This document shows positions 34,932-46,021 of a stretch of DNA of 62,014 nt, piece after piece; position 1 is the first letter of the stretch, and the number at the start of each line of letters is the position of its first letter. The translations under genes were made by a program, and so were the position numbers. The notes beneath the pieces were generated by a model. The model was not told the origin of the DNA. It was given only the letters and a program-made list of their open reading frames with translations, and did not search any database. Source of the stretch: Acidimicrobiaceae bacterium (GTDB lineage Bacteria; Actinomycetota; Acidimicrobiia; Acidimicrobiales; RAAP-2). Location of the stretch: NCBI GenBank assembly GCA_003164095.1, contig PLRX01000100.1, forward strand, positions 1 through 62,014, written 5' to 3'.

Positions 34932-36836
34932 TCAGTTGGTGAGGGCGTTGCCCAACGGGAGCGGGACATCGGTCGTCACGATCGGCACGCCGAGTATCGA
35001 CGCACCCGGAGTGATCCTCCACACCAGGTAGCCGGCGATCCTGGCGTGGGGGACGAGTGTCGCCTGGCCACTGGTCAATTCGTCCAGACCGCGCAGTGCC
35101 GGCGAGGCGATCAGGTAGACCGAGCCGCCGGGGGCCACGGCCACGGTGCTGCGGCCGTCGTAGTACAGCGACCCGCCGTACTCGGCGTACTCGGAGGTGC
35201 CGGGAGAGACCAGCACGATGTGCTGCGACGGCAGGATCGAGCCGGCCTGCCGGAAGAAGGACTCGCCGCCGTCCAGCGAATCGATGACGATCACGTCGGT
35301 GGTCGGATGCACCGACGCACCGAGGCGGGCGAGCTGTGCGTCGATCCGGTCGACCGAGCGGATGTGGGCCAGGGTGTCGTCGAAGGGGGCCTGGTACCTG
35401 GCCTGGGTGAACCAGAGCCCGTGGGCGCCGAACTGCGTGCGGAAGGGCAGCACGCCCCCAGCGGTCAGGAAGCGGTCCGCGCCGAAGACGGCGATGGCCA
35501 CGACCGCGGCGGTGGCTACCACACCCCAGGCGCGTGCCCACGCCCGGTGCCCGGGTCGGGAGTGCAGGAGCGCCGCCGGTGCCAGGAGCAGCGCGATGAC
35601 CGTGCCGGGCAGGTAGGACAGCAGATAGCCACCCTTGGCGAACTGCACCAGGGCCACGATGGCCATCGGTGGCACCGTGGCGGCCACCAGGATCGCCGTC
35701 CGGGACTGGTACCAGGGCCGCCCCCACGGCGGCGGACGCCGACGGTGTCGGGGCCCGGTGGTCCTGGGAACGGCGTCGTGCGCATGACGGTCGGCAACGG
35801 GGCCGCCCGGTGCCACGTCGGCGTCGTCGGTGCGGCGGACGGCGCGCACGAGGGCGCGGACGCCGAGTCCGAACGCGGCCACCATGGCCAGGGCCGCCAA
35901 CGGGAGGAGCGCCACGGTGGTGTAGGCGGCAAAGGTGCCGAGGTTCACCGAGCTGCCCGAGGCGTGCTCGAGGACGGAGGTGGCATCGGCCGCCCCCTGG
36001 GATTCGATCCGGCTGGCCCGGAGCCACGTCGTGATCCCACCAGGCTGGGCCAGGGCCATGGGGACGACCCACGCGGCGAGTGCTGCGAGGCCGAGGCCCA
36101 CGGCCGTCAGGGCCTCGCGGGTCCTGCGTACGGATCCGAGGACCGCCAGCAGGGCCAACGGCAGGAACATCGCGCCTGCGGACTGGCGGAAGCCGGTCAC
36201 CAGGGCGAGGGCGAGCAGCGCACCGGCGCCGTGCCAGGAATGGGGGCGGGCCCGCCAGGCCAGGATGATCAGTAGCGGCGCGATGGCCAGGTCGAAGGAG
36301 TACACCGCGACGGTCGAGCCGCTGAACCAGGCGAACGGCGACGTGGCGACGAGGACGCCGGCGAGGATGCCCACCCAGCGCCCCCCGAGGTCCCGTCCAG
36401 CGACCACCGTCAGCCCGGCCGCGGCGGCCGATGCCACGGCCGCCACGAGCACGAGTGACTGCACGGTGCCGACCCCCGTCTCATGGAGCAGCCGACCCGC
36501 CTCCACGTAGAGCCAGTAGCCGGGCGGCTGGGGTCGCCCATGGGTCACGTCGAAGCGGGACACGGCTGCGACGTACTGGGCGGAGTCCCAGTCCGTGGGA
36601 CCGTGGGCCGCAGTGACCAGACGACCGACGAGGGTCGCCACCCCGATCACCCAAGGGGTCAACAGGTCGAGCACCTGGAGGCGTACGGTCGCCGCCCGGT
36701 CGGACGCGAGACGACCCGGCCTGCGACGAGGTGCCGGACGATCGCCGCGGGAAGGGTCGGCCGGTCGCTGCGCCACCGACGGACCGTGGACCACCGGGCC
36801 GGTGCCCGCGCCGATGACGGTCCGTTCATAAAACAC
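34932..36836 (-). CDS. Polytopic GT39-like glycosyltransferase
   Basis: The 634-residue membrane protein has about ten hydrophobic segments. The first extracytoplasmic loop reads PTDWDSAQYVAAVSRFDVTH and then GRPQPPGYWLYV; the acidic Asp-Ser/Asp-Asp-type site is where ArnT, PMT and GT39/DUF2723 enzymes bind a polyprenyl-phosphate sugar. The C-terminal 200 residues form a soluble extracytoplasmic domain. It starts at GTG 36836. It would transfer a sugar outside the membrane to protein or glycan, possibly to the Thr/Ser-rich secreted proteins encoded next to it (inference). Confidence 0.8.
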   Translation of the reverse strand: MFYERTVIGAGTGPVVHGPSVAQRPADPSRGDRPAPRRRPGRLASDRAATVRLQVLDLLTPWVIGVATLVGRLVTAAHGPTDWDSAQYVAAVSRFDVTHGRPQPPGYWLYVEAGRLLHETGVGTVQSLVLVAAVASAAAAGLTVVAGRDLGGRWVGILAGVLVATSPFAWFSGSTVAVYSFDLAIAPLLIILAWRARPHSWHGAGALLALALVTGFRQSAGAMFLPLALLAVLGSVRRTREALTAVGLGLAALAAWVVPMALAQPGGITTWLRASRIESQGAADATSVLEHASGSSVNLGTFAAYTTVALLPLAALAMVAAFGLGVRALVRAVRRTDDADVAPGGPVADRHAHDAVPRTTGPRHRRRPPPWGRPWYQSRTAILVAATVPPMAIVALVQFAKGGYLLSYLPGTVIALLLAPAALLHSRPGHRAWARAWGVVATAAVVAIAVFGADRFLTAGGVLPFRTQFGAHGLWFTQARYQAPFDDTLAHIRSVDRIDAQLARLGASVHPTTDVIVIDSLDGGESFFRQAGSILPSQHIVLVSPGTSEYAEYGGSLYYDGRSTVAVAPGGSVYLIASPALRGLDELTSGQATLVPHARIAGYLVWRITPGASILGVPIVTTDVPLPLGNALTN

Positions 36837-36931: not shown

Positions 36932-37029
36932 GGGTTAGAACAAGTGTGTCCGACCGACGGCCGTCGGCGCCGGGATGGCCGCGAGCAGGTGAACCGTCGG
37001 GTTTCCTGACGGAGGAGACGAGGGATTCG

Positions 37030-39315
37030 ATGCAACTGGGGAACCGTGGACGGCAGTCGGGCGCGCTCGAGGCGAGACACCCGGGACACACCCGGAGCCG
37101 ATGGGCGCGCACGACGAGGGCGGTGTCGGTGGCCGCACTGGTAGGCGCAGTGTCCCCCGTACTGGCCGCGACGTCGGCCACCGCCGCCCACGCAGGGCCC
37201 GCGCCTCGGATTCCCGGCATCTCGCTGGCCTGGCAGCAGGTCCTCCCGGACGCGGGGTCGCCCATCGCCGAGAGTTCGCCCAACGTCGCCACCCTCGACA
37301 ACGGAGGCAACTCGGTCGTCGTCGGCGACCGGGCGGGCAACGTCTACGCCTTCCACCTGTCCAACGGGTCCCAGGTCTCCGGCTGGCCGGCCAACGTCGG
37401 TGCCCCCGTCGACTCGACCCCGTCGGCCGCGCCCAACGGCTCGGGAGCCGATGACATCTTCGTGGGATCGGGCAACGCAGGGGATCCCAAGGCCGGTGGT
37501 TACACCGGCATCACCAGCACGGGCATCCCCTTCTGGTCACGCTCCGCCGTCGATCCGCAGGGAAACGAAGGGGTCCAGGCCTCGCTGGCCGTGGGCACGT
37601 TGCAGGGAGCCCAGTCCGTGGTCGCGCCGTCGCTCGGCATGGAGGAGTACGCGCTGAACACCGCCACCGGCAACGTCGTGCCGGGCTGGCCGTTCTTCAC
37701 GGCGGACAGTGGCTTCACCACGCCGTCGCTGGCCGACCTCTACAACAACGGTCAGACCGAGGTCGTGACGGGGGGTGACTCCTCGACCGGTTGGGCCGAT
37801 GGCCAGCACTACACGGCCGGCGGCCACCTGCGTGTCATCGGGAGCGGTGGGAACCTCATCTGCTCCTACAACACGAACCAGACCGTCGACTCGTCGACCG
37901 CGGTGGGGAACTTCCTCGCCGGAGGGGGTACGGGCATCGTCTTCGGTACCGGCAACTTCTTCCCGGGTGCGCCGGACACGAACATGCTGTTCGCCTCGGA
38001 CAACCACTGCAACATCCAGTGGCGGGTCGACCTCGGCGGCAACACGGTCTCCAGCCCCGCCATCGGCGATGTGCTGGGCAACGGCGGCGAGCAGGTGGTC
38101 GAGGGCGTGGACACCGGTTCGAACGGTGTCGTGTCCGTGCTCAACGGTGCGAACGGTCAGCAACTGCCGGGCTGGCCGGTGACGACCCCGGGACGCATCA
38201 TTGGCGGCGTCACCCTGGCCGACCTGACCAACGGTGGCTACAACGACGTGCTCGCCCCGACCACCGACGGGCTCGAGATCTTCGACGGCAAGACGGCCCA
38301 GCTGGTCGCCACGCTCGGCCAGGGTGCGGTCGCCCTGCAGAACTCGGCCCTGGTGACCACCGATCCCGACGGCTCCATCGGCATCACCATCGCCGGCTAC
38401 GGGGCGGGTAACGAAGGCATCATCCAGCACTACGTCGTGAGCGGCTCCACCGGCCACTCGCTCGGACTGCGCTCGTGGCCCCAGTTCCACCAGAACTCGC
38501 AGCTGACCGGCTGGCTGGCCGCCGCCGCCCCCGGTCACCTCAACTCGCCGATCGTGGCCATGTCGTCGACGCCGACGGGCCACGGGTACTGGAACGCGGC
38601 CTCTGACGGCGGCATCTTCGCCTTCGGTGACGCCGCCTTCCATGGTTCGATGGGCGGCCAGCCGCTGACGCGCCCCGTGGTCGGTATGGCCGCGACGTCG
38701 GACGGCAAGGGCTACTGGGAGGTGGCCGCGGACGGCGGCCTGTTCGCCTTCGGCGACGCGGACTTCCACGGCTCCATGGGCGGGCAACCACTCGCCCAAC
38801 CGGTGGTGGGGATCGCCGCCACTCCGGACGGGAGGGGCTACTGGGAGGTGGCCGCGGACGGCGGCCTCTTCGCCTTCGGCGACGCGGGCTACTTCGGCTC
38901 GACCGGGAACATCCGGCTCAACCGTCCGATCGTGGGCATGGCGTCCACGCCGGACGGGCGCGGCTACTGGCTGGTCGCCTCCGACGGCGGGGTGTTCGCC
39001 TTCGGGGATGCCGGCTACTTCGGCTCGATGGGCGGGCAGCAACTCAACAGGCCCATCGTGGCGATCGCGGCCCACGGCTCGAGCGGCTACTGGCTCGTGG
39101 CCTCCGATGGCGGCGTGTTCAGCTTCGGGTCGGCGCCGTTCTACGGCTCGACCGGCAACCTGACACTCGCTCAGCCGGTCGTCGGCATGTCGCCCGGACC
39201 GCGCGACGACGGGTACTGGATGGTGGCGGCCGACGGAGGCATCTTCGCCTTCGGCGACTCCGAGTACTTCGGCTCGATGCCGGCGGTGCTCGCTCCACCG
39301 CGTGGGTTCGACTGA
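37030..39315 (+). CDS. Secreted FG-GAP/VCBS-like protein with six 42-residue C-terminal repeats
   Basis: The 761-residue protein has a long Arg-rich N-terminus and a signal peptide core AVSVAALVGAVSPVLAATSA ending near AHA. Residues about 75-510 look like a beta-propeller of FG-GAP/VCBS type, with recurrent phrases such as SLADLYNNGQTEVVTGGD and TLADLTNGGYNDVLAPTTD. From residue 519 six repeats of about 42 residues follow, each starting GYW and containing DGGxFxFGDAxFxGS. The ATG at 37030 has AGGG and GGAGGA upstream; GTG 36946 is an alternative start 28 codons earlier. It probably acts on the cell surface. No enzyme motif was seen. Confidence 0.82.
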   Translation: MQLGNRGRQSGALEARHPGHTRSRWARTTRAVSVAALVGAVSPVLAATSATAAHAGPAPRIPGISLAWQQVLPDAGSPIAESSPNVATLDNGGNSVVVGDRAGNVYAFHLSNGSQVSGWPANVGAPVDSTPSAAPNGSGADDIFVGSGNAGDPKAGGYTGITSTGIPFWSRSAVDPQGNEGVQASLAVGTLQGAQSVVAPSLGMEEYALNTATGNVVPGWPFFTADSGFTTPSLADLYNNGQTEVVTGGDSSTGWADGQHYTAGGHLRVIGSGGNLICSYNTNQTVDSSTAVGNFLAGGGTGIVFGTGNFFPGAPDTNMLFASDNHCNIQWRVDLGGNTVSSPAIGDVLGNGGEQVVEGVDTGSNGVVSVLNGANGQQLPGWPVTTPGRIIGGVTLADLTNGGYNDVLAPTTDGLEIFDGKTAQLVATLGQGAVALQNSALVTTDPDGSIGITIAGYGAGNEGIIQHYVVSGSTGHSLGLRSWPQFHQNSQLTGWLAAAAPGHLNSPIVAMSSTPTGHGYWNAASDGGIFAFGDAAFHGSMGGQPLTRPVVGMAATSDGKGYWEVAADGGLFAFGDADFHGSMGGQPLAQPVVGIAATPDGRGYWEVAADGGLFAFGDAGYFGSTGNIRLNRPIVGMASTPDGRGYWLVASDGGVFAFGDAGYFGSMGGQQLNRPIVAIAAHGSSGYWLVASDGGVFSFGSAPFYGSTGNLTLAQPVVGMSPGPRDDGYWMVAADGGIFAFGDSEYFGSMPAVLAPPRGFD
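38584..39303 (+). repeat. Six 126-base coding repeats (42-residue units)
   Basis: Six consecutive in-frame units code for GYW-x-VA-x-DGG-(I/L/V)-F-x-FGDA-x-(F/Y)-x-GS-x-G, then a variable loop and PVVGMA-x-TPDG. The last copy is shorter. The units are diverged at DNA level, so they are old protein repeats rather than a recent tandem array. Confidence 0.85.
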
Positions 39316-39429: not shown

Positions 39430-39432
39430 TTG

Positions 39433-41526
39433 ATGGACGTGTCCGATCAGCGATCCAGGGGCGTCGCTGCGGCGTCTCCACCATCCGTCGTCTCCGGCGT
39501 CCACCGGCACCTGCGCCACGCCCTGGTGGCCGCGGCGGCCTGCGTGGCGGGTGTGGTGCCGCTGGCGGGCACCGTGGCCTTCGCGCCGACCGCCCAGGCC
39601 TACCCGTCGGCAACCGTCAACCTGACGGGTCACGGCTACGGGCACGGCCGAGGAATGGGCCAGTGGGGCGCCTTCGGGTATGCCTACGACGGCTGGTCCT
39701 GGCAGCAGATCGTCGGGCACTACTACTCGGGTAGCACGCCGACGGCTGTCTCGGCGTCCCAGGACGCCACCGACATCCGCGTCGTCATGACCGAGAACAA
39801 CGGCAACAGCGTGATCGTGACCTCAGGTAACGGCTTCCTCCTCTGGGGGCAGCGCTTCACAGCCGGGCAGGCGGTGGAGATGGTGCCCAATGGCGCGGGC
39901 ACGTGGAGCCTGTACTCCGGGTCCTCATGCGGCGGACCGTGGTCGGGCCCGTTCGCCACGGGTGCGCTGAACCCCGTGGTGATTCCCGACCACGAGACGG
40001 TGATCGGCGACCCGCCGGCCACCGTGGCCGCGGACGCCCTGCAGCTGTGCCAGGCGGGCGGCAACGTCTCCGTCCGGGGCGTGCTGATGGCCAGGTACAA
40101 CACCGGCTCGCCCGCCGCGCCCCGGACGGTCAACGTTCTGCCGCTGGAGGACTACGTCGCCGGGGTCGTGCCCAACGAGTCGCCCGCCTACTGGGGGACC
40201 CTGGGCGGGGCGGGGGCGCAGGGCCAGGCCCGGGGATTCCAGGAGCTCGAGGCCCAGGCGGTGGCCGCCCGCTCCTACGTCATGGCCGCACTCGGCTCCT
40301 ACGGCGACTACGCCGACACGTGCGACCTGACCTGCCAGACGTTCCGCGGCATCGCCAACGACAGCCCGCTCACCGACGCCGCCACGATGGCCACCTCATC
40401 GGTCGTCATGGAGGAGGGTGGCCGGATCATGACCACCGAGTACTCGGCCTCCACCGGCGGGTACACAGCGCCCGGCACATTCCCGGCGGTCGTCGACGAC
40501 GGGGACTCGATCTGTCCGCCCGGTGTCAACGGCGCTTGCAACCCGAATCACACGTGGCAGGCCTCCGTCCCGGTCACGTCCATCCAGTCCACCTGGCCGC
40601 AGCTGGGCACGCTGGAGTCGATCTCGATCACAGGGCGCAACGGCTACGGCGACTGGGGCGGCCGGGTGACGTCGATGACCCTCGTGGGATCGTCGCAGGA
40701 CGTGGTCGTGACAGGCGACCAGTTCGCCGCGGCGTTCAACCTCCTGTCGGACTGGTTCATCCCGACGAACGCCCTGCCGAGCGCGGCGGTGGGCATGGCG
40801 TCGACGCCGGACACCAGGGGCTACTGGATCGCCGGGTCGAACGGCACGGTACGCGCCTTCGGGGATGCCGCACCCGTCGGCTCGGCCGGTGGTCAACCGC
40901 TGGCCGCACCGGTGGTCGGCATCGTGGCCACACCGGACGGGAAGGGCTACTGGGAGGTCGCGGCCGACGGCGGCGTCTTCGCCTACGGTGACGCCGGCTT
41001 CTACGGCTCGGCCGGGGCCCTGCACCTGAACCAGCCGATCGTCGGCATGGCCCGCACGGCGACCGGTCGCGGCTACTGGCTGGTGGCGGCGGACGGTGGC
41101 ATCTTCAGTTACGGCGACGCCACGTTCCACGGCTCGACCGGGGCGATGACCCTGAACAAGCCCGTCGTCGGCATGGCGGGCACGCCGGACGCCGGCGGGT
41201 ACTGGCTCGTCGCGTCGGACGGCGGCATCTTCGCCTTCGGCGATGCCGTGTTCTACGGCTCGATGGGCGGGCAGCCGCTCAACCGGCCGATCGTGGGCAT
41301 GACGACCGGCGCCGGAGGGACCGGCTACCGGCTGGTCGCCTCGGACGGTGGCATCTTCGACTTCGGCAACGCCGGGTTCTTCGGCTCGGCCGGCAACCTC
41401 GTGCTGGCCCAACCCATCGTCGGCATGTCGGCCACCCCCGACGGCGGCGGCTATTGGCTCGTGGCCGCGGACGGCGGCATCTTCAATTACGGGAACGCCG
41501 GCTTCTACGGCTCCGGGTCGTCCTGA
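39433..41526 (+). CDS. Secreted SpoIID/LytB-domain protein with six 42-residue repeats
   Basis: The product is about 697 residues. A signal peptide (VAAAACVAGVVPLAGTVAFA, cleaved near AQA) is followed by the SpoIID-family entry GHGYGHGRGMGQWGAFGYAY. The SpoIID/LytB core is LPLEDYVAGVVPNESPAYWG, LEAQAVAARSYV and EYSASTGGYT. SpoIID cuts glycan strands of peptidoglycan, and LytB relatives enhance amidases. From residue about 463 six repeats follow that match the neighbouring protein at 37030. Start candidates are ATG 39433 and GTG 39439. The repeat domain probably targets the protein to the envelope (inference). Confidence 0.88.
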   Translation: MDVSDQRSRGVAAASPPSVVSGVHRHLRHALVAAAACVAGVVPLAGTVAFAPTAQAYPSATVNLTGHGYGHGRGMGQWGAFGYAYDGWSWQQIVGHYYSGSTPTAVSASQDATDIRVVMTENNGNSVIVTSGNGFLLWGQRFTAGQAVEMVPNGAGTWSLYSGSSCGGPWSGPFATGALNPVVIPDHETVIGDPPATVAADALQLCQAGGNVSVRGVLMARYNTGSPAAPRTVNVLPLEDYVAGVVPNESPAYWGTLGGAGAQGQARGFQELEAQAVAARSYVMAALGSYGDYADTCDLTCQTFRGIANDSPLTDAATMATSSVVMEEGGRIMTTEYSASTGGYTAPGTFPAVVDDGDSICPPGVNGACNPNHTWQASVPVTSIQSTWPQLGTLESISITGRNGYGDWGGRVTSMTLVGSSQDVVVTGDQFAAAFNLLSDWFIPTNALPSAAVGMASTPDTRGYWIAGSNGTVRAFGDAAPVGSAGGQPLAAPVVGIVATPDGKGYWEVAADGGVFAYGDAGFYGSAGALHLNQPIVGMARTATGRGYWLVAADGGIFSYGDATFHGSTGAMTLNKPVVGMAGTPDAGGYWLVASDGGIFAFGDAVFYGSMGGQPLNRPIVGMTTGAGGTGYRLVASDGGIFDFGNAGFFGSAGNLVLAQPIVGMSATPDGGGYWLVAADGGIFNYGNAGFYGSGSS
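40819..41520 (+). repeat. Six 126-base coding repeats (42-residue units)
   Basis: Six in-frame units of the same family as those at 38584-39303. The first is degenerate (GYWIAGSNGTVRAFGDA), and the fifth has GYR instead of GYW. The equal copy number in both proteins supports a closed six-unit structure, such as a six-bladed propeller. Confidence 0.85.
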
Positions 41527-41562: not shown

Positions 41563-43008
41563 CTACTTGACGATCCTGACGGTGGAGGTGTTGTCGGCCG
41601 TCCCGAAGGCTGACACGAAGGAGGAGTTCTCGAACAGTAGGTTGCCGCCGTTTCGAACCCTCCATGTCGGAACGTCGATCGTGCCGCCCCCAGCCTCCCG
41701 TCCCACGGCAACGCCGAGGAAGGTGAGCGAACCACCGTCCTGATTGATGCACGGTTGGGGGTTCAGGCGCCTGCATGAGATCGCTCCGCCGACGAACGTG
41801 ACCTGCGCGTTGCTGCCGGGACTCGAAAGGGCGACGTGATGGAATCCCGTGCAATCGGAGATGGTGATCGGACCACCGAGGAACTCGACCATGTTGAACC
41901 CGGCGTCGTCGATGCAATTGGAGATGGTGACATTGTCGGAACCACGTCCGGCGATGTCGGATTCGAAGTCGAACCCGGCGTCAGCGGGGCTGACGATGTG
42001 CACGTTGTTCAACGTCGAATCGGACACCTCTGCCAAGGTGACTCCCTGGCGTCCGGCGTTGATGGTGGTGAAGCCGTCCACTGTCAGTCCGGTGACTGGA
42101 GTCCGATCGATCGGCGTGTGCGCGACGAGTTCCAGTCCGTCACCCCACGTGTCCTTGGCGGTGACACCGATGATGGTCACGTCGGTGGCGGACACCAGCT
42201 TGATGCCGGCCTCGGTCACCAACTTCGGGTGGAAGGCGCCAGTCGCGTTGGCTCCGAGCACCGTCAGTCCTGAGAGGGTCACGTGGGAAGTCTCATGCAC
42301 GCTGATGATCGGCTTCAGGCAGTCCCAGCTGGCATCGGGAGGCACCACGGTGGACGGGTCGTAGAACGTGCCCCCGATGATGGTGATCGGGCTCCGCAGA
42401 TGGATGCCCTGGGGAACGTCGTAGCAGGCGGTTGTCGACGACCGGAAGACCGACCCGGCGGGTAGCGAGTCGAGATACGTCTGCAGGCCCGGCGTCGCGG
42501 GCGAGGAACAGGTCGAGTCGAACGTGGCCGGACCGGGGACCGTGGTCGGTTCCGTCGTCGCTGTGGTTGTGGGCGGAACGGTGGTCGTTGACGTCGGGAC
42601 CGTGGTCGTGGTCGTCGTCGTCGTGCCCGTACCGCCCTGTCCCGACCGACCAGTGGACGACGGCTGGGTCGTGGCGGTGGGCGCCACCGTGGTCACGGTG
42701 GTGGACGTCACGCCTGCGGGCGTAGTGGTCACGGTGGTCGTCGACGTGGTCACCGACTGGGGGCGCGTGGTCGTGGTCACCGTGGTCGTCGGCGACACGA
42801 CGGTGGTTCGCGTGGTGGCGCGGCCGGGAGCGGCGGTGGCGACGACCTGGTGGGTGCCCACGGCGCCGGCGGGCCCGGTGGGGGCACTTGCCACCAGTGC
42901 CGTGCCGACGAGGACCGCGACCACGGCGATACCGGTCCCGATGCGCGTGCCGATCGACCGGCGCGGGCGAATGCCCTGCCGGAATCCTGCGTCCTGCCCC
43001 TGCTGCAT
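41563..43008 (-). CDS. Secreted right-handed beta-helix protein with Thr-rich stalk
   Basis: The 481-residue protein starts at the minus-strand ATG at 43008, preceded by GGAGGGG. It has a basic N-terminus, a signal or anchor helix (GIAVVAVLVGTALVASAP) and a Thr/Pro/Val-rich stalk at about 60-160. A pectate-lyase-like parallel beta-helix follows, with coils such as SHVTLSGLTVLGANATG, TDVTIIGVTAKDTWGDG and DSTLNNVHIVSPADAGFDF. It contains paired Cys residues. No polysaccharide-lyase catalytic set could be identified, so it may be an adhesin-like or glycan-binding protein. Its leader carries the c-di-GMP-type riboswitch. Confidence 0.82.
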   Translation of the reverse strand: MQQGQDAGFRQGIRPRRSIGTRIGTGIAVVAVLVGTALVASAPTGPAGAVGTHQVVATAAPGRATTRTTVVSPTTTVTTTTRPQSVTTSTTTVTTTPAGVTSTTVTTVAPTATTQPSSTGRSGQGGTGTTTTTTTTVPTSTTTVPPTTTATTEPTTVPGPATFDSTCSSPATPGLQTYLDSLPAGSVFRSSTTACYDVPQGIHLRSPITIIGGTFYDPSTVVPPDASWDCLKPIISVHETSHVTLSGLTVLGANATGAFHPKLVTEAGIKLVSATDVTIIGVTAKDTWGDGLELVAHTPIDRTPVTGLTVDGFTTINAGRQGVTLAEVSDSTLNNVHIVSPADAGFDFESDIAGRGSDNVTISNCIDDAGFNMVEFLGGPITISDCTGFHHVALSSPGSNAQVTFVGGAISCRRLNPQPCINQDGGSLTFLGVAVGREAGGGTIDVPTWRVRNGGNLLFENSSFVSAFGTADNTSTVRIVK

Positions 43009-43010
43009 GG

Positions 43011-43149
43011 CCCCTCCATCTGCCCACTGAGGGTCGGGCGCGCCAAGGCGGCATCGATGGTGGTGCCTGCTCCGGCAACCCGGCTGACTCGGTGAGCCCC
43101 GTGGTGTTGCGTCCCCTCCTCGCAGAGGGTTTGCCCTTGTCCTGCAGGC
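43011..43149 (-). promoter_or_regulatory. Cyclic di-GMP-I (GEMM-I) riboswitch in the beta-helix gene leader
   Basis: Read on the minus strand from 43149: an outer stem GCCTGC (43149-43144) pairs with GCAGGC (43070-43065). Inside are AGGGCAAACC (43137-43128), a stem CCCTCT/GGAGGG closed by a GCGA (GNRA) tetraloop at 43123-43120, GGACGCAA (43114-43107), and AGCCGGGTTGCCGG (43085-43072). These blocks, their order and the GNRA loop match the GEMM-I aptamer, in which that tetraloop docks in the other helix. Downstream, CCCTC (43033-43029) can pair with GAGGG of the Shine-Dalgarno sequence (43016-43012), a possible translational switch. No fold was computed. Confidence 0.8.
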
Positions 43150-43179
43150 TCCGTCTCCTGTGCACGGTGCCTTATGAGT

Positions 43180-43208
43180 ATCGTACGCTTCGTGTGCAAT
43201 TACCGCAA
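43180..43208 (-). promoter_or_regulatory. Promoter of the riboswitch-beta-helix transcript
   Basis: On the minus strand TTGCGG (43208-43203) is followed by 17 bases and TACGAT (43185-43180). Transcription would start near 43173, just before the outer stem of the riboswitch, giving a leader of about 165 bases. The rest of the 352-base divergent gap (43009-43360) holds the riboswitch and, to the right, a possible N-terminal extension of the flippase gene. Confidence 0.55.
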
Positions 43209-43346
43209 TGAGTGATGAGGAAAACGCACAACGTGGTGACAAAGGTCCCTCGCCCGCCGTACACGGGGTCGACGCCGCAGGTGCCTCCGTGTCCGTCGGG
43301 GGACCGACGGGTGCGCGGAGTCCTCGGGACGAGGTGTCCCGCCACC

Positions 43347-43352
43347 TAGTCT
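43347..43352 (+). promoter_or_regulatory. -10 box TAGTCT, leaderless arrangement
   Basis: TAGTCT ends nine bases before the ATG at 43361. It supports that ATG over the upstream in-frame ATG at 43208. Confidence 0.4.
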
Positions 43353-43360
43353 CAGGACGG

Positions 43361-46021
43361 ATGGACGAGGCAGCGACGGACGGACAGCGAACAGTGGCGA
43401 AGGCGGCGACCGATCCCGGTCCGCCGCCTGCGCCTGCACCCGACGTACCGCAGGGCACCGGCCGGTGGTCGGCACGCTCGTGGCGGGCCATCTTCTTCGC
43501 CCCCGTCGGGGACGGCCGTCGTCGTCGGCGGGGCAGCGACGCCATCCGCGTCGGGATCGCGCTGCTGGTGGTCGTGATCTGCTGGCTCGCCACCCGCGTC
43601 AACCCGTCCAGCGAGAAGGCCCTCATCAGTGCCGTCACCCCGGTGCCCGAGGGCATCAAGTGGCTGGTGACCTCGGTCGCCTGGGTGGGCTCGGTCGGAC
43701 TCGTGGTCGTGGTCGTGGCCCTCGCCCTGATCTCGCGCCGGACCGAGGTCATCCGTGACACCGTGCTGGCGGGGGCCGGTGCCTGGTTGGTGTGCGTCGG
43801 ACTCGGCGTCCTGCTCGGCCCGGACGGCGGCCGACCGACGGCCACTGCGCCCCACGGGTTCGACCTGGCGTTCCCGGTGGCCCGGGTGGCGGCAGCGGTG
43901 GCGGTGGCCGCCGCGGCCATGCCCTATTTGAGCCGCTGGGTCCAGCGGGCGATCCTCGTGACGGTCGCCCTCCTGGCCGTGGCCACCATGGTGTCGGGCT
44001 ACGGGCTGCCGGTTGCCGTGCTGGCCAGCCTGGCGATCGGCGTGCTGCTCACCGCGATCGTGCACCTGGTCTTCGGGTCGCCGCTCGGACTCGCCTCGGC
44101 CGCCGAGGTGAAGCTCCTGCTCGCCGACCTGGGCATCGCCGTCGATGGGATCGAGCCTGCGTCGAAGCAGTCATGGGGGATGGGCAGGTTCTCGGCACGA
44201 CTGGACGGCAGCAGCCTCGACGTGTCGTTCTACGGCCGCGACGCGGCGGATGCGCAGCTGCTGTCGAAGACGACCCGATTCCTCCTCTACCGGGACTCCG
44301 GCCCCACCCTCACCTTCACGCGCCGCCAGCAGGTCGAGCACGAGGCGTACCTGACGTTGATGGCCGACCGGGCCGGTGCCCGGGTCGCCACCGTCCTCGC
44401 CGCCGGACCGGCGGGACCGGCGAAGGACGCGCTGTTGGTGACCCGGCCGCCGCCCGGTCGGCGGCTCGCCGAGCTCGCTCCCTTCGTCCTGCCGGCGGCG
44501 GAGACATCCGATGGTGGGGAGGACGGGGGTTCCGCCGGAACGGACGTCCTGACCGAGGCCGTGGAGTCGGACGTCCGGCCGGATGTCGTGGAGTCGGACG
44601 CCGTGGAGTCGGACGCCGCCGCGCCCGCGCCCACCGACCGCGCCCTCACCGACGAGGCACTCGACGGGATCTTCGCCCAGGTGCTCAACCTGCGGCGCGC
44701 CGGTATCGCCCACGGCGCACTGTCGACCGAGACGATCGTGCTCGCCGACGATGGCACGTCGGGTCTCGTGGACATGCGCGCCGCGGCCACTGTGGCCACC
44801 ACCGACCAGCTCGACCGGGACCTCGCAGCGACGATGGCCGCGACGGCGTTGGTGGCCGGACCGGAGCGGGCCGCTGCCGCCGCGGCCCGCACGGTCCCGT
44901 CCGACGCGCTGGCTGCCGCCCTGCCGTACCTCCAGCGGGCCGCCCTCGACCCGATCGCCTCGCGGACCCTGCGGGGTAAGAAGCCGATCCTGGCGGCACT
45001 ACGCGACGAAGGGGCCAAGGCGGCCGACATCGAGGTCCCCAAGCTCATCGAGCCGCGACGCATCAGCTGGGTGAACCTCGTCCTGGTGGTGGGCACCCTG
45101 ATCGGCGGGTGGGCGCTCATCGGCGTGCTGGTCAACGTGACCCACTCGTGGAGCACCATCACGGGCGCCAGGTGGGGCTGGGTGGCGGCCGTGTTCGTGC
45201 TTGCCCAGGCCGTCTACCCGGCCCTGGCCGTCACGACGATCGGATCGGTGACCGACACGATCCCGTACGGCAGGACCGTCGCCCTCGAGGTGTCGAACAC
45301 CTTCGTGTCCCTGGCCGGGGGCACGATGGGCTCACTCGCCACCCGCGTCCGCTTCTTCCAGCAGCAGGGCTACGACGCCACGCTGGCCGTCAGCTCCGGC
45401 GTCCTGATCTCCACGGCGAGCTGGATCGTGAAGGGCGGCCTGTTCGTGATCGCCATCCCGATCGCCATCTCGCAGTTCCACTTCGGCGATGCCCCGACGA
45501 GCACCGGTGGCGGGTCGGGGAGCTCGACGGCGACACTGGTCTGGATCATCGTCATCGCCGTCGTTGGGCTCGGGATCGTGCTGGGACTCCTGTTCGCCAT
45601 CCCGCGGTGGCGGCGGCTGGCAGCGGCCAAGCTCCGGCCGAAGGCGTCCGAGGTCTGGAAGCACCTCAAGGTGCTCTCCACCCACCCCCGCAACCTGGTG
45701 GAGATCTTTGGTGGCGAGATCGTCGGCCAGCTGTTGGTCGCCATGGCCCTGGGCGCCGCACTGCACGCCTTCGACCAGCACCTGAGCCTCGCCTCACTGC
45801 TGATCGCGCTGACGCTGGGGTCGATGATCGGCGGCATTTCGCCGGTGCCGGGTGGCATGGGCGTGGTGGAGGCCGGGATGATCCTGGCCCTGACCGCGGC
45901 GGGCATCCCCCAGGACGACGCTGTCGCGGCTGTCTTCGTCCAGCGGCTCTTCACCGCCTACCTCCCGCCGATCTGGGGCTGGTTCTTCCTCATCTGGATG
46001 CGGAAGAAGGAATATCTGTAG
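43361..46021 (+). CDS. Membrane protein: pseudokinase-like domain plus MprF/AglD-type flippase domain
   Basis: The protein is about 886 residues (937 if ATG 43208 is used). After a disordered Pro/Ala-rich start come several transmembrane helices. A cytoplasmic domain (about 250-540) has a protein-kinase outline: VEHEAYLTLMADRAGARV for the N-lobe and AGIAHGALSTETIVLADDG for the catalytic loop. The catalytic Asp is replaced by Ala (HGA, His451), and DFG reads DMR. Residues about 565-870 are an LPG_synthase_TM/UPF0104 domain with GGTMGSLATRVRFFQQQGYD and PGGMGVVEAGMILALTAAGI. Such domains flip lipids or lipid-linked sugars. No lysyltransferase domain is present. Confidence 0.8.
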   Translation: MDEAATDGQRTVAKAATDPGPPPAPAPDVPQGTGRWSARSWRAIFFAPVGDGRRRRRGSDAIRVGIALLVVVICWLATRVNPSSEKALISAVTPVPEGIKWLVTSVAWVGSVGLVVVVVALALISRRTEVIRDTVLAGAGAWLVCVGLGVLLGPDGGRPTATAPHGFDLAFPVARVAAAVAVAAAAMPYLSRWVQRAILVTVALLAVATMVSGYGLPVAVLASLAIGVLLTAIVHLVFGSPLGLASAAEVKLLLADLGIAVDGIEPASKQSWGMGRFSARLDGSSLDVSFYGRDAADAQLLSKTTRFLLYRDSGPTLTFTRRQQVEHEAYLTLMADRAGARVATVLAAGPAGPAKDALLVTRPPPGRRLAELAPFVLPAAETSDGGEDGGSAGTDVLTEAVESDVRPDVVESDAVESDAAAPAPTDRALTDEALDGIFAQVLNLRRAGIAHGALSTETIVLADDGTSGLVDMRAAATVATTDQLDRDLAATMAATALVAGPERAAAAAARTVPSDALAAALPYLQRAALDPIASRTLRGKKPILAALRDEGAKAADIEVPKLIEPRRISWVNLVLVVGTLIGGWALIGVLVNVTHSWSTITGARWGWVAAVFVLAQAVYPALAVTTIGSVTDTIPYGRTVALEVSNTFVSLAGGTMGSLATRVRFFQQQGYDATLAVSSGVLISTASWIVKGGLFVIAIPIAISQFHFGDAPTSTGGGSGSSTATLVWIIVIAVVGLGIVLGLLFAIPRWRRLAAAKLRPKASEVWKHLKVLSTHPRNLVEIFGGEIVGQLLVAMALGAALHAFDQHLSLASLLIALTLGSMIGGISPVPGGMGVVEAGMILALTAAGIPQDDAVAAVFVQRLFTAYLPPIWGWFFLIWMRKKEYL

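Follow-up and report, generated by a model that had tools for sequence, protein, structure and literature searches.

The closest described relatives of the locus reported here are the c-di-GMP-I (GEMM-I) riboswitches of Rfam family RF01051. Class-I c-di-GMP riboswitches of C. difficile are reported (PMC6200980) to control a putative adhesin and other envelope proteins and to be mostly OFF switches. For the protein product, a relevant comparison is RbmB of Vibrio cholerae, a polysaccharide lyase with a parallel beta-helix (PMC11637428; PDB 9ozd, 9ozl). In the open-access literature, a search for "c-di-GMP riboswitch" in Acidimicrobi- organisms found no report, and riboswitch reports on Acidimicrobi- included none on this switch by title.

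The locus lies within a 62,014-base stretch of DNA that was analysed as a whole (hereafter the window), from a genus of the Acidimicrobiaceae as judged by its named relatives. It resembles the RF01051 systems in its match to the whole model, three-helix layout, GNRA loop and contact bases, and in that it sits within the 5' leader of a gene whose product is putatively exported; it differs from them in its lineage, in the beta-helix family of its target and in an expression platform that appears to be translational. The predicted exported target recalls the envelope targets of C. difficile, whereas, set against the mostly OFF switches of that organism, no terminator was seen at this leader. The modelled target shares the parallel beta-helix of RbmB; however, identity between the two is 12–15%, and the likeness is one of fold only, which does not imply the VPS-like substrate of RbmB.

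We propose, with a probability of roughly 0.8, that the leader carries a class-I c-di-GMP riboswitch in which the ligand sets how far ribosomes can reach the start of the beta-helix gene (43008), and that the product is an exported protein that might act on polysaccharide. Support for a class-I aptamer on a gene for a putatively exported beta-helix protein comes from the covariance model, from covariation, the contact bases, the c-di-GMP enzymes of the genome and the conserved pairing of aptamer and gene. The switch belongs to a known riboswitch class, and its kind of target is unusual without being unprecedented; the apparent novelty lies in its lineage-specific link to a beta-helix protein whose predicted fold is that of polysaccharide enzymes, and in a class-wide survey of targets. 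If this reading is true, an uncultured actinobacterial lineage would have one exported protein under the direct control of c-di-GMP, probably at the level of translation, and with it a concrete c-di-GMP output that can be tested.

The aptamer, its helices and the c-di-GMP machinery

An Rfam scan of all 62,014 bases at the gathering threshold returned two matches, one tRNA and RF01051. The latter is located at 43145–43071 on the minus strand, spans the full model (positions 1–87) and scores 55.7 bits against a cut-off of 35 (E 3.4e-8). A GEMM-I aptamer had been claimed here in the first-pass annotation, with the lack of any match above threshold named beforehand as refutation, and the claim is borne out by this match. 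The leader elements on which it was built, namely TTGCGG, a 17-base spacer, TACGAT, AGGGCAAACC, a GCGA tetraloop, GGACGCAA, AGCCGGGTTGCCGG, a 6-bp closing stem and the ATG at 43008, were all found on the minus strand where they had been placed. The genome to which the window belongs (G000; 3,717,433 bases or 3.72 Mb, 163 contigs, 95.5% complete) yielded this one copy only (43145–43071 minus, E 4.8e-10). RF01051 had no match in any of 14 control genomes, which argues against chance matches, sensitivity being a separate matter.

The aptamer (43071–43145, minus strand) displayed the following structural features: (i) a closing stem P1 of 6 bp, in which GCCTGC (43144–43149) pairs with GCAGGC (43065–43070), (ii) a P2 hairpin, CCCTCT-GCGA-GGAGGG (43114–43129), with the GNRA loop GCGA at 43123–43120, and (iii) a P3 hairpin at 43078–43105. 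Covariation was evaluated on ten genus aptamers, each of 75 bases, aligned with their flanks. Within P2 and P3, 98.4% of the cells were paired, a value that fell to 33–54% when the partners were slid, and four double-sided pair changes were counted against a shuffled mean of 1.7, with 4 of 500 shuffles as high. The letters of P1 are different in most relatives and still complementary; the duplex energy of P1 summed over ten leaders was -140.8 as compared to -115.9 (sd 8.9) with base-shuffled downstream flanks, and 10 of 2000 shuffles reached it. P1 is poor in one genome (G231, -6.7). The two helices and the closing stem that had been predicted from the window are hence upheld by its relatives, and P1, P2, P3 and the ligand contact bases of the window aptamer are intact.

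Searches of the own genome identified 16 GGDEF and 14 EAL matches, so that c-di-GMP is very probably made in this organism. Four MshEN matches were also found, and none to PilZ; the window RNA is thus one of few c-di-GMP receptors recognised in this genome by the searches made.

The leader and its expression platform

The putative promoter (43180–43208, minus strand) consists of TTGCGG (43208–43203), a spacer of 17 bases and TACGAT (43185–43180), and its -35 element shares bases with the start codon of the divergent gene. A consensus promoter scan found no promoter, TTGCGG-N17-TACGAT falling below its threshold. TTGC followed by 17–18 bases and a -10-like hexamer recurs in 6 of the 10 genus leaders, including that of G231, where no match to the divergent gene was found. 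The promoter put forward in the first-pass annotation is therefore present as a sequence with a recurring pattern, although it does not reach the score of a consensus promoter. If it is right, the leader would be about 165 bases long. The next open reading frame with a family match (39430–41526) lies on the opposite strand; the transcript looks to be that of one gene, and the switch probably serves that gene alone.

Between the aptamer and the start codon lies the expression platform (43009–43064, minus strand), which comprises a linker, a CCC (43033–43031) that could pair with a GGG (43025–43023), a candidate anti-Shine-Dalgarno (anti-SD) sequence CCCTC (43033–43029) and the SD sequence GGAGG (43017–43013), 4 bases 5' of the ATG at 43008. 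No terminator-like sites were found around the leader, and none of the ten platforms has a T run of more than two bases between aptamer and start. When the ten leaders were compared with dinucleotide-shuffled upstream sequence, the GGAG region of the SD was less accessible in the native sequence (Fisher combined p 6.6e-4, a value that is too small because the leaders are related), with single-leader p values from 0.003 to 0.81. Since neither a terminator-like site nor a long T run was seen and the SD is buried over the ten related leaders, control of the beta-helix gene is probably translational. Actinomycetota have been reported to favour translational riboswitches (PMC12452182). For the window itself the burial p value was 0.23, no better than chance; the CCCTC/GAGGG pairing that had been suggested to hide its SD can form, and is accordingly possible but unproven.

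Folding of the leaders with P1 formed or blocked changed SD access by about 0.1 or less in 7 of 10 cases. For the other three (G402, G398a and G398b), at one or both of the two lengths folded, formation of P1 clearly buried the SD further, which would mean an OFF switch. The window was slightly more open with P1 formed, at the SD (0.39 vs 0.29, with 40 coding bases) as well as at the AUG (0.62 vs 0.34, with 9 coding bases), which would mean an ON switch. Forcing P2 and P3 likewise gave no consistent sign of switching. Folds of these G+C-rich leaders vary with the length of coding sequence included, as in G403, where SD access was 0.01 with 6 or 9 coding bases and 0.57–0.90 with 40 or 45, and for this reason they were not relied on for the direction of switching. 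The platforms vary from leader to leader. A shared switching helix was considered and rejected: the 3' end of the aptamer, CCGGAG, can pair with CTCCGG in G403 and CTCCG in G404, and by eye has no such partner in G000, G398a and G310. In mechanistic terms, the canonical three-helix aptamer would sense c-di-GMP, ligand-stabilised P1 would alter base pairing within the 56-base platform, where the SD lies, and ribosome access to the gene at 43008 would follow the level of c-di-GMP.

The first codons of the gene (CAGGGGCAGG..., protein MxQGQ; 43008–42970, minus strand, in the window) are alike at the nucleotide level in G000, G403, G398a, G310 and G231, and might contribute to an RNA structure or act as a signal for translation.

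The beta-helix target, its linkage to the aptamer and alternative readings

The target gene (41563–43008, minus strand) encodes a protein of 481 amino acids. It begins with a signal or membrane segment, continues with a linker rich in Thr (which makes up as much as 52% of 60 residues) and has a predicted right-handed beta-helix domain at residues 162–481. By eye, the N-terminus is basic and hydrophobic and there is no obvious C-terminal anchor; judged from its sequence, the protein is probably exported. Against the gathering cut-off of 25.9 bits for PF13229, the full-length protein scores 25.0, just short of it, and the isolated domain 26.5; 11 of 12 homologous domains match PF13229 at E <= 0.001. 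No NCBIfam match was obtained for the target protein, and PADLOC found none.

Within the genus, the aptamer is present in 9 of 14 genomes and a homologue of the beta-helix protein in 10. In all nine aptamer genomes the homologous gene lies downstream of the aptamer, its start 57–67 bases past it; in G397 the frame from the start ends early (92 residues) and the homologous domain follows further on in another open frame. The tenth homologue (G399) is weak (E 1.1e-8), has no aptamer and comes from a genome that is 69% complete. Neither aptamer nor homologue was found in G395, G376, G400 and G401. If the two were independent, the chance that nine aptamers would all fall among ten protein-bearing genomes is 10/2002, about 0.005 when calculated by hand, which is only a guide because the genomes are related and some are incomplete. 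Five of the nine loci (G000, G403, G398, G404 and G310) have in common a SpoIID-type gene and, outside the switch, a divergent neighbour with a lysylphosphatidylglycerol (LPG) synthase transmembrane region (43208–46021, plus strand, in the window), which marks the shared locus; tblastn found neither neighbour in the stretches of about 3 to 18 kb available for G231, G396, G402 and G397. Further homologues occur on contigs without an aptamer match in G310 (C9 and C12), G404 (C245 and C164) and G403 (C458, with only 97 bases of upstream sequence), and the tenth genus aptamer, G398b, precedes a GH26-like protein. A pattern derived from the profile located eight beta-helix loci in GTDB genomes, each of them in a MAG of the Acidimicrobiaceae or Acidimicrobiales. 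A more distant homologue (21% identity over 196 residues, pairwise E 1e-8) lies downstream of a different GEMM-I aptamer, on G138 C40, which represents a second family of the order.

An AlphaFold2 model of the target, built with nine sequences, consists of nearly all strands (pLDDT 86.9, pTM 0.88) and agrees with a beta-helix. Its best Foldseek match in the PDB is the biofilm lyase RbmB of V. cholerae (E 9.9e-7, TM 0.55), followed by polygalacturonase and tailspikes, and the sole match of a PDB sequence search with the family profile is a phage tail fibre (7qoj, E 1e-5). The structural matches bear on the choice between an adhesin and an enzyme. The surface adhesin PfbA is among those returned by VIA-align (Z 26.5), Thr-rich stalks are found in six of the nine aptamer-linked homologues (absent in G231 and G402, not readable in G397), and the class-I targets described for C. 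difficile include a putative adhesin (PMC6200980). Against an adhesin, most of the best 50 VIA-align matches act on or bind polysaccharides by title, and they include the epimerase AlgE4 (Z 29.1, rmsd 2.4 over 282 residues), RbmB (Z 28.0) and polygalacturonases (Z 26.8–28.1). The list also holds phi29 gp12 (Z 29.4); in this comparison rows within 1 Z are tied, and absence from the list does not exclude a family. Furthermore, among 12 sequences (domain numbering) D129 and D186 are invariant and R159, E188 and E214 are conserved in 90% or more, with spacings of 27–30 residues, about one coil, so that these charged residues could line up on a single face, as they would in a groove for polysaccharide. 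A shared fold does not establish function; as modelled, the fold points to a polysaccharide-active enzyme as much as to an adhesin, and we give the adhesin somewhat less than even odds. The "surface protein" of the first-pass annotation is for this reason, and in view of the lack of an obvious anchor, a candidate reading; of its Thr-stalked beta-helix protein, the predicted fold and the Thr-rich linker were recovered in the window, whereas the stalk is not shared by all homologues. Our guess, guided by the model, is that the exported product binds or processes a polysaccharide of the cell surface or matrix.

Other alternatives concern the RNA itself. We take the numbering of the ligand contact bases G20, A47 and C92 to be that of the Vc2 structure; counting along the 75-base aptamer of the window, the corresponding bases are G, A and C. 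That the aptamer is a ligand-shifted variant, either c-di-GMP-I-GGC or a cGAMP type, responding to a signal other than c-di-GMP, would agree with a narrow cmscan search in which RF03167 (c-di-GMP-I-GGC), a family of related fold, was the best of its clan for the window at 53.3 bits. This score is nonetheless under the RF03167 cut-off of 59, the RF01051 cut-off is exceeded by 20 bits, and the window reads GACGCAAC where the RF03167 consensus reads GACGCGAA, so that it retains A where the variant has G. The name GGC presumably denotes the contact triad, with G at the A47 position. GEMM-I aptamers that sense cGAMP have A at position 20, where the window has G. The contact bases and the sub-threshold RF03167 score thus identify the window aptamer as the canonical c-di-GMP type, neither GGC nor cGAMP, and a shifted ligand is very improbable. 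A relic that folds and no longer controls the gene is also unlikely: at 55.7 bits the window ranks second lowest by RF01051 score among the ten aptamers of the genus, which span 54.6 to 67.5, its SD burial taken alone is not above chance, and decay may occur in the genus, as the altered C92 place and the shortened reading frame of G397 would indicate, but the window has lost none of its helices or contact bases, and aptamer and gene have stayed together in 9 of 9 aptamer genomes. We give hardly any credence to a coding role for the aptamer DNA. In the window no in-frame stop occurs over the 287 bases that precede the start, the frame being open from 43920, and the protein might on that account start further upstream; against this stand an in-frame stop located inside the aptamer or past it in five of the ten genus leaders (G398a, G404, G310, G402 and G231), the GGAGG just ahead of the ATG, and pairs that co-vary as RNA.

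GEMM-I aptamers across the class

RF01051 was found at 61 places (60 over the cut-off) in 34 of 395 genomes (33 over the cut-off) of the class, Acidimicrobiia, as named from its named relatives. Position 92 is C at all 61 places, position 20 is G at 59, A at one and C at one, and position 47 is A at 60, the remaining place (G199) being unread as the aptamer does not align there. The two aptamers with A or C at position 20 (G138:C79:31012-31085 and G131:C282:19689-19767) are candidates for an altered choice of ligand. The RF03167 cut-off was passed at 19 places in 13 of the 395 genomes, yet 60 of the 61 RF01051 places have A and none read has G at the A47 position; the RF03167 threshold does not seem to separate variant from canonical aptamers in this class. 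One place, in G213, matched RF03167 only (31.3 bits). In the G397 aptamer (L098, 1501–1575), T stands at the C92 place with G20 and A47 kept, and the downstream frame ends early; this combination could stem from decay, from an error in the assembly or from a shift in ligand preference.

To survey the targets, 61 downstream proteins were scanned, from 60 of the 61 class places plus G398b; the place on G138:C115 was left out as it has no clear downstream open reading frame, and the frames were chosen by eye from the two longest candidates per place. Pfam matches comprised the type IV pilin N-terminus (23), CAP (15), beta-helix (4), GH26 (2), HAMP (2), GGDEF (2), WxL (2) and EAL (1), with others found once or twice each, and by eye most of the other class targets begin with a signal-like segment. 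Given that targets across the class are mostly exported, the window's switch would be one case of a wider reliance on GEMM-I to control extracellular proteins, this genus having a target of its own. The target list, with 23 pilin-type and 15 CAP proteins among 61, suggests that this riboswitch mainly decides which extracellular proteins get made. More tentatively, and with greater doubt than assent, the class-I c-di-GMP riboswitches of the Acidimicrobiia could be viewed as one regulon whose members (type IV pilins, CAP-domain proteins, glycosidases and beta-helix proteins) are for the most part exported, and in which the switch of this genus would have been fitted to a lineage-specific, RbmB/AlgE-like matrix-polysaccharide enzyme, with c-di-GMP setting matrix remodelling at translation.

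Two GEMM-I aptamers of the class (L041 and L056, G197) precede HAMP-GGDEF-like proteins, which suggests feedback on c-di-GMP turnover. Two adjacent proteins encoded in the window, with a beta-propeller match (36946–39315, plus strand) and a SpoIID/LytB match (39430–41526, plus strand), both have repeats like GYWLVASDGGIFAFGDA, and repeats that resemble these by eye occur in GEMM-I-linked proteins of G079 (C11), G138 (C60), G330 (C35) and G131 (C282). About 5 kb from the gene for the Thr-rich protein, the window also encodes a TMEM260-like O-mannosyltransferase match (34932–36836, minus strand; PF11028, 24.5 bits, cut-off 24.2), and this protein might glycosylate the Thr-rich stalks.
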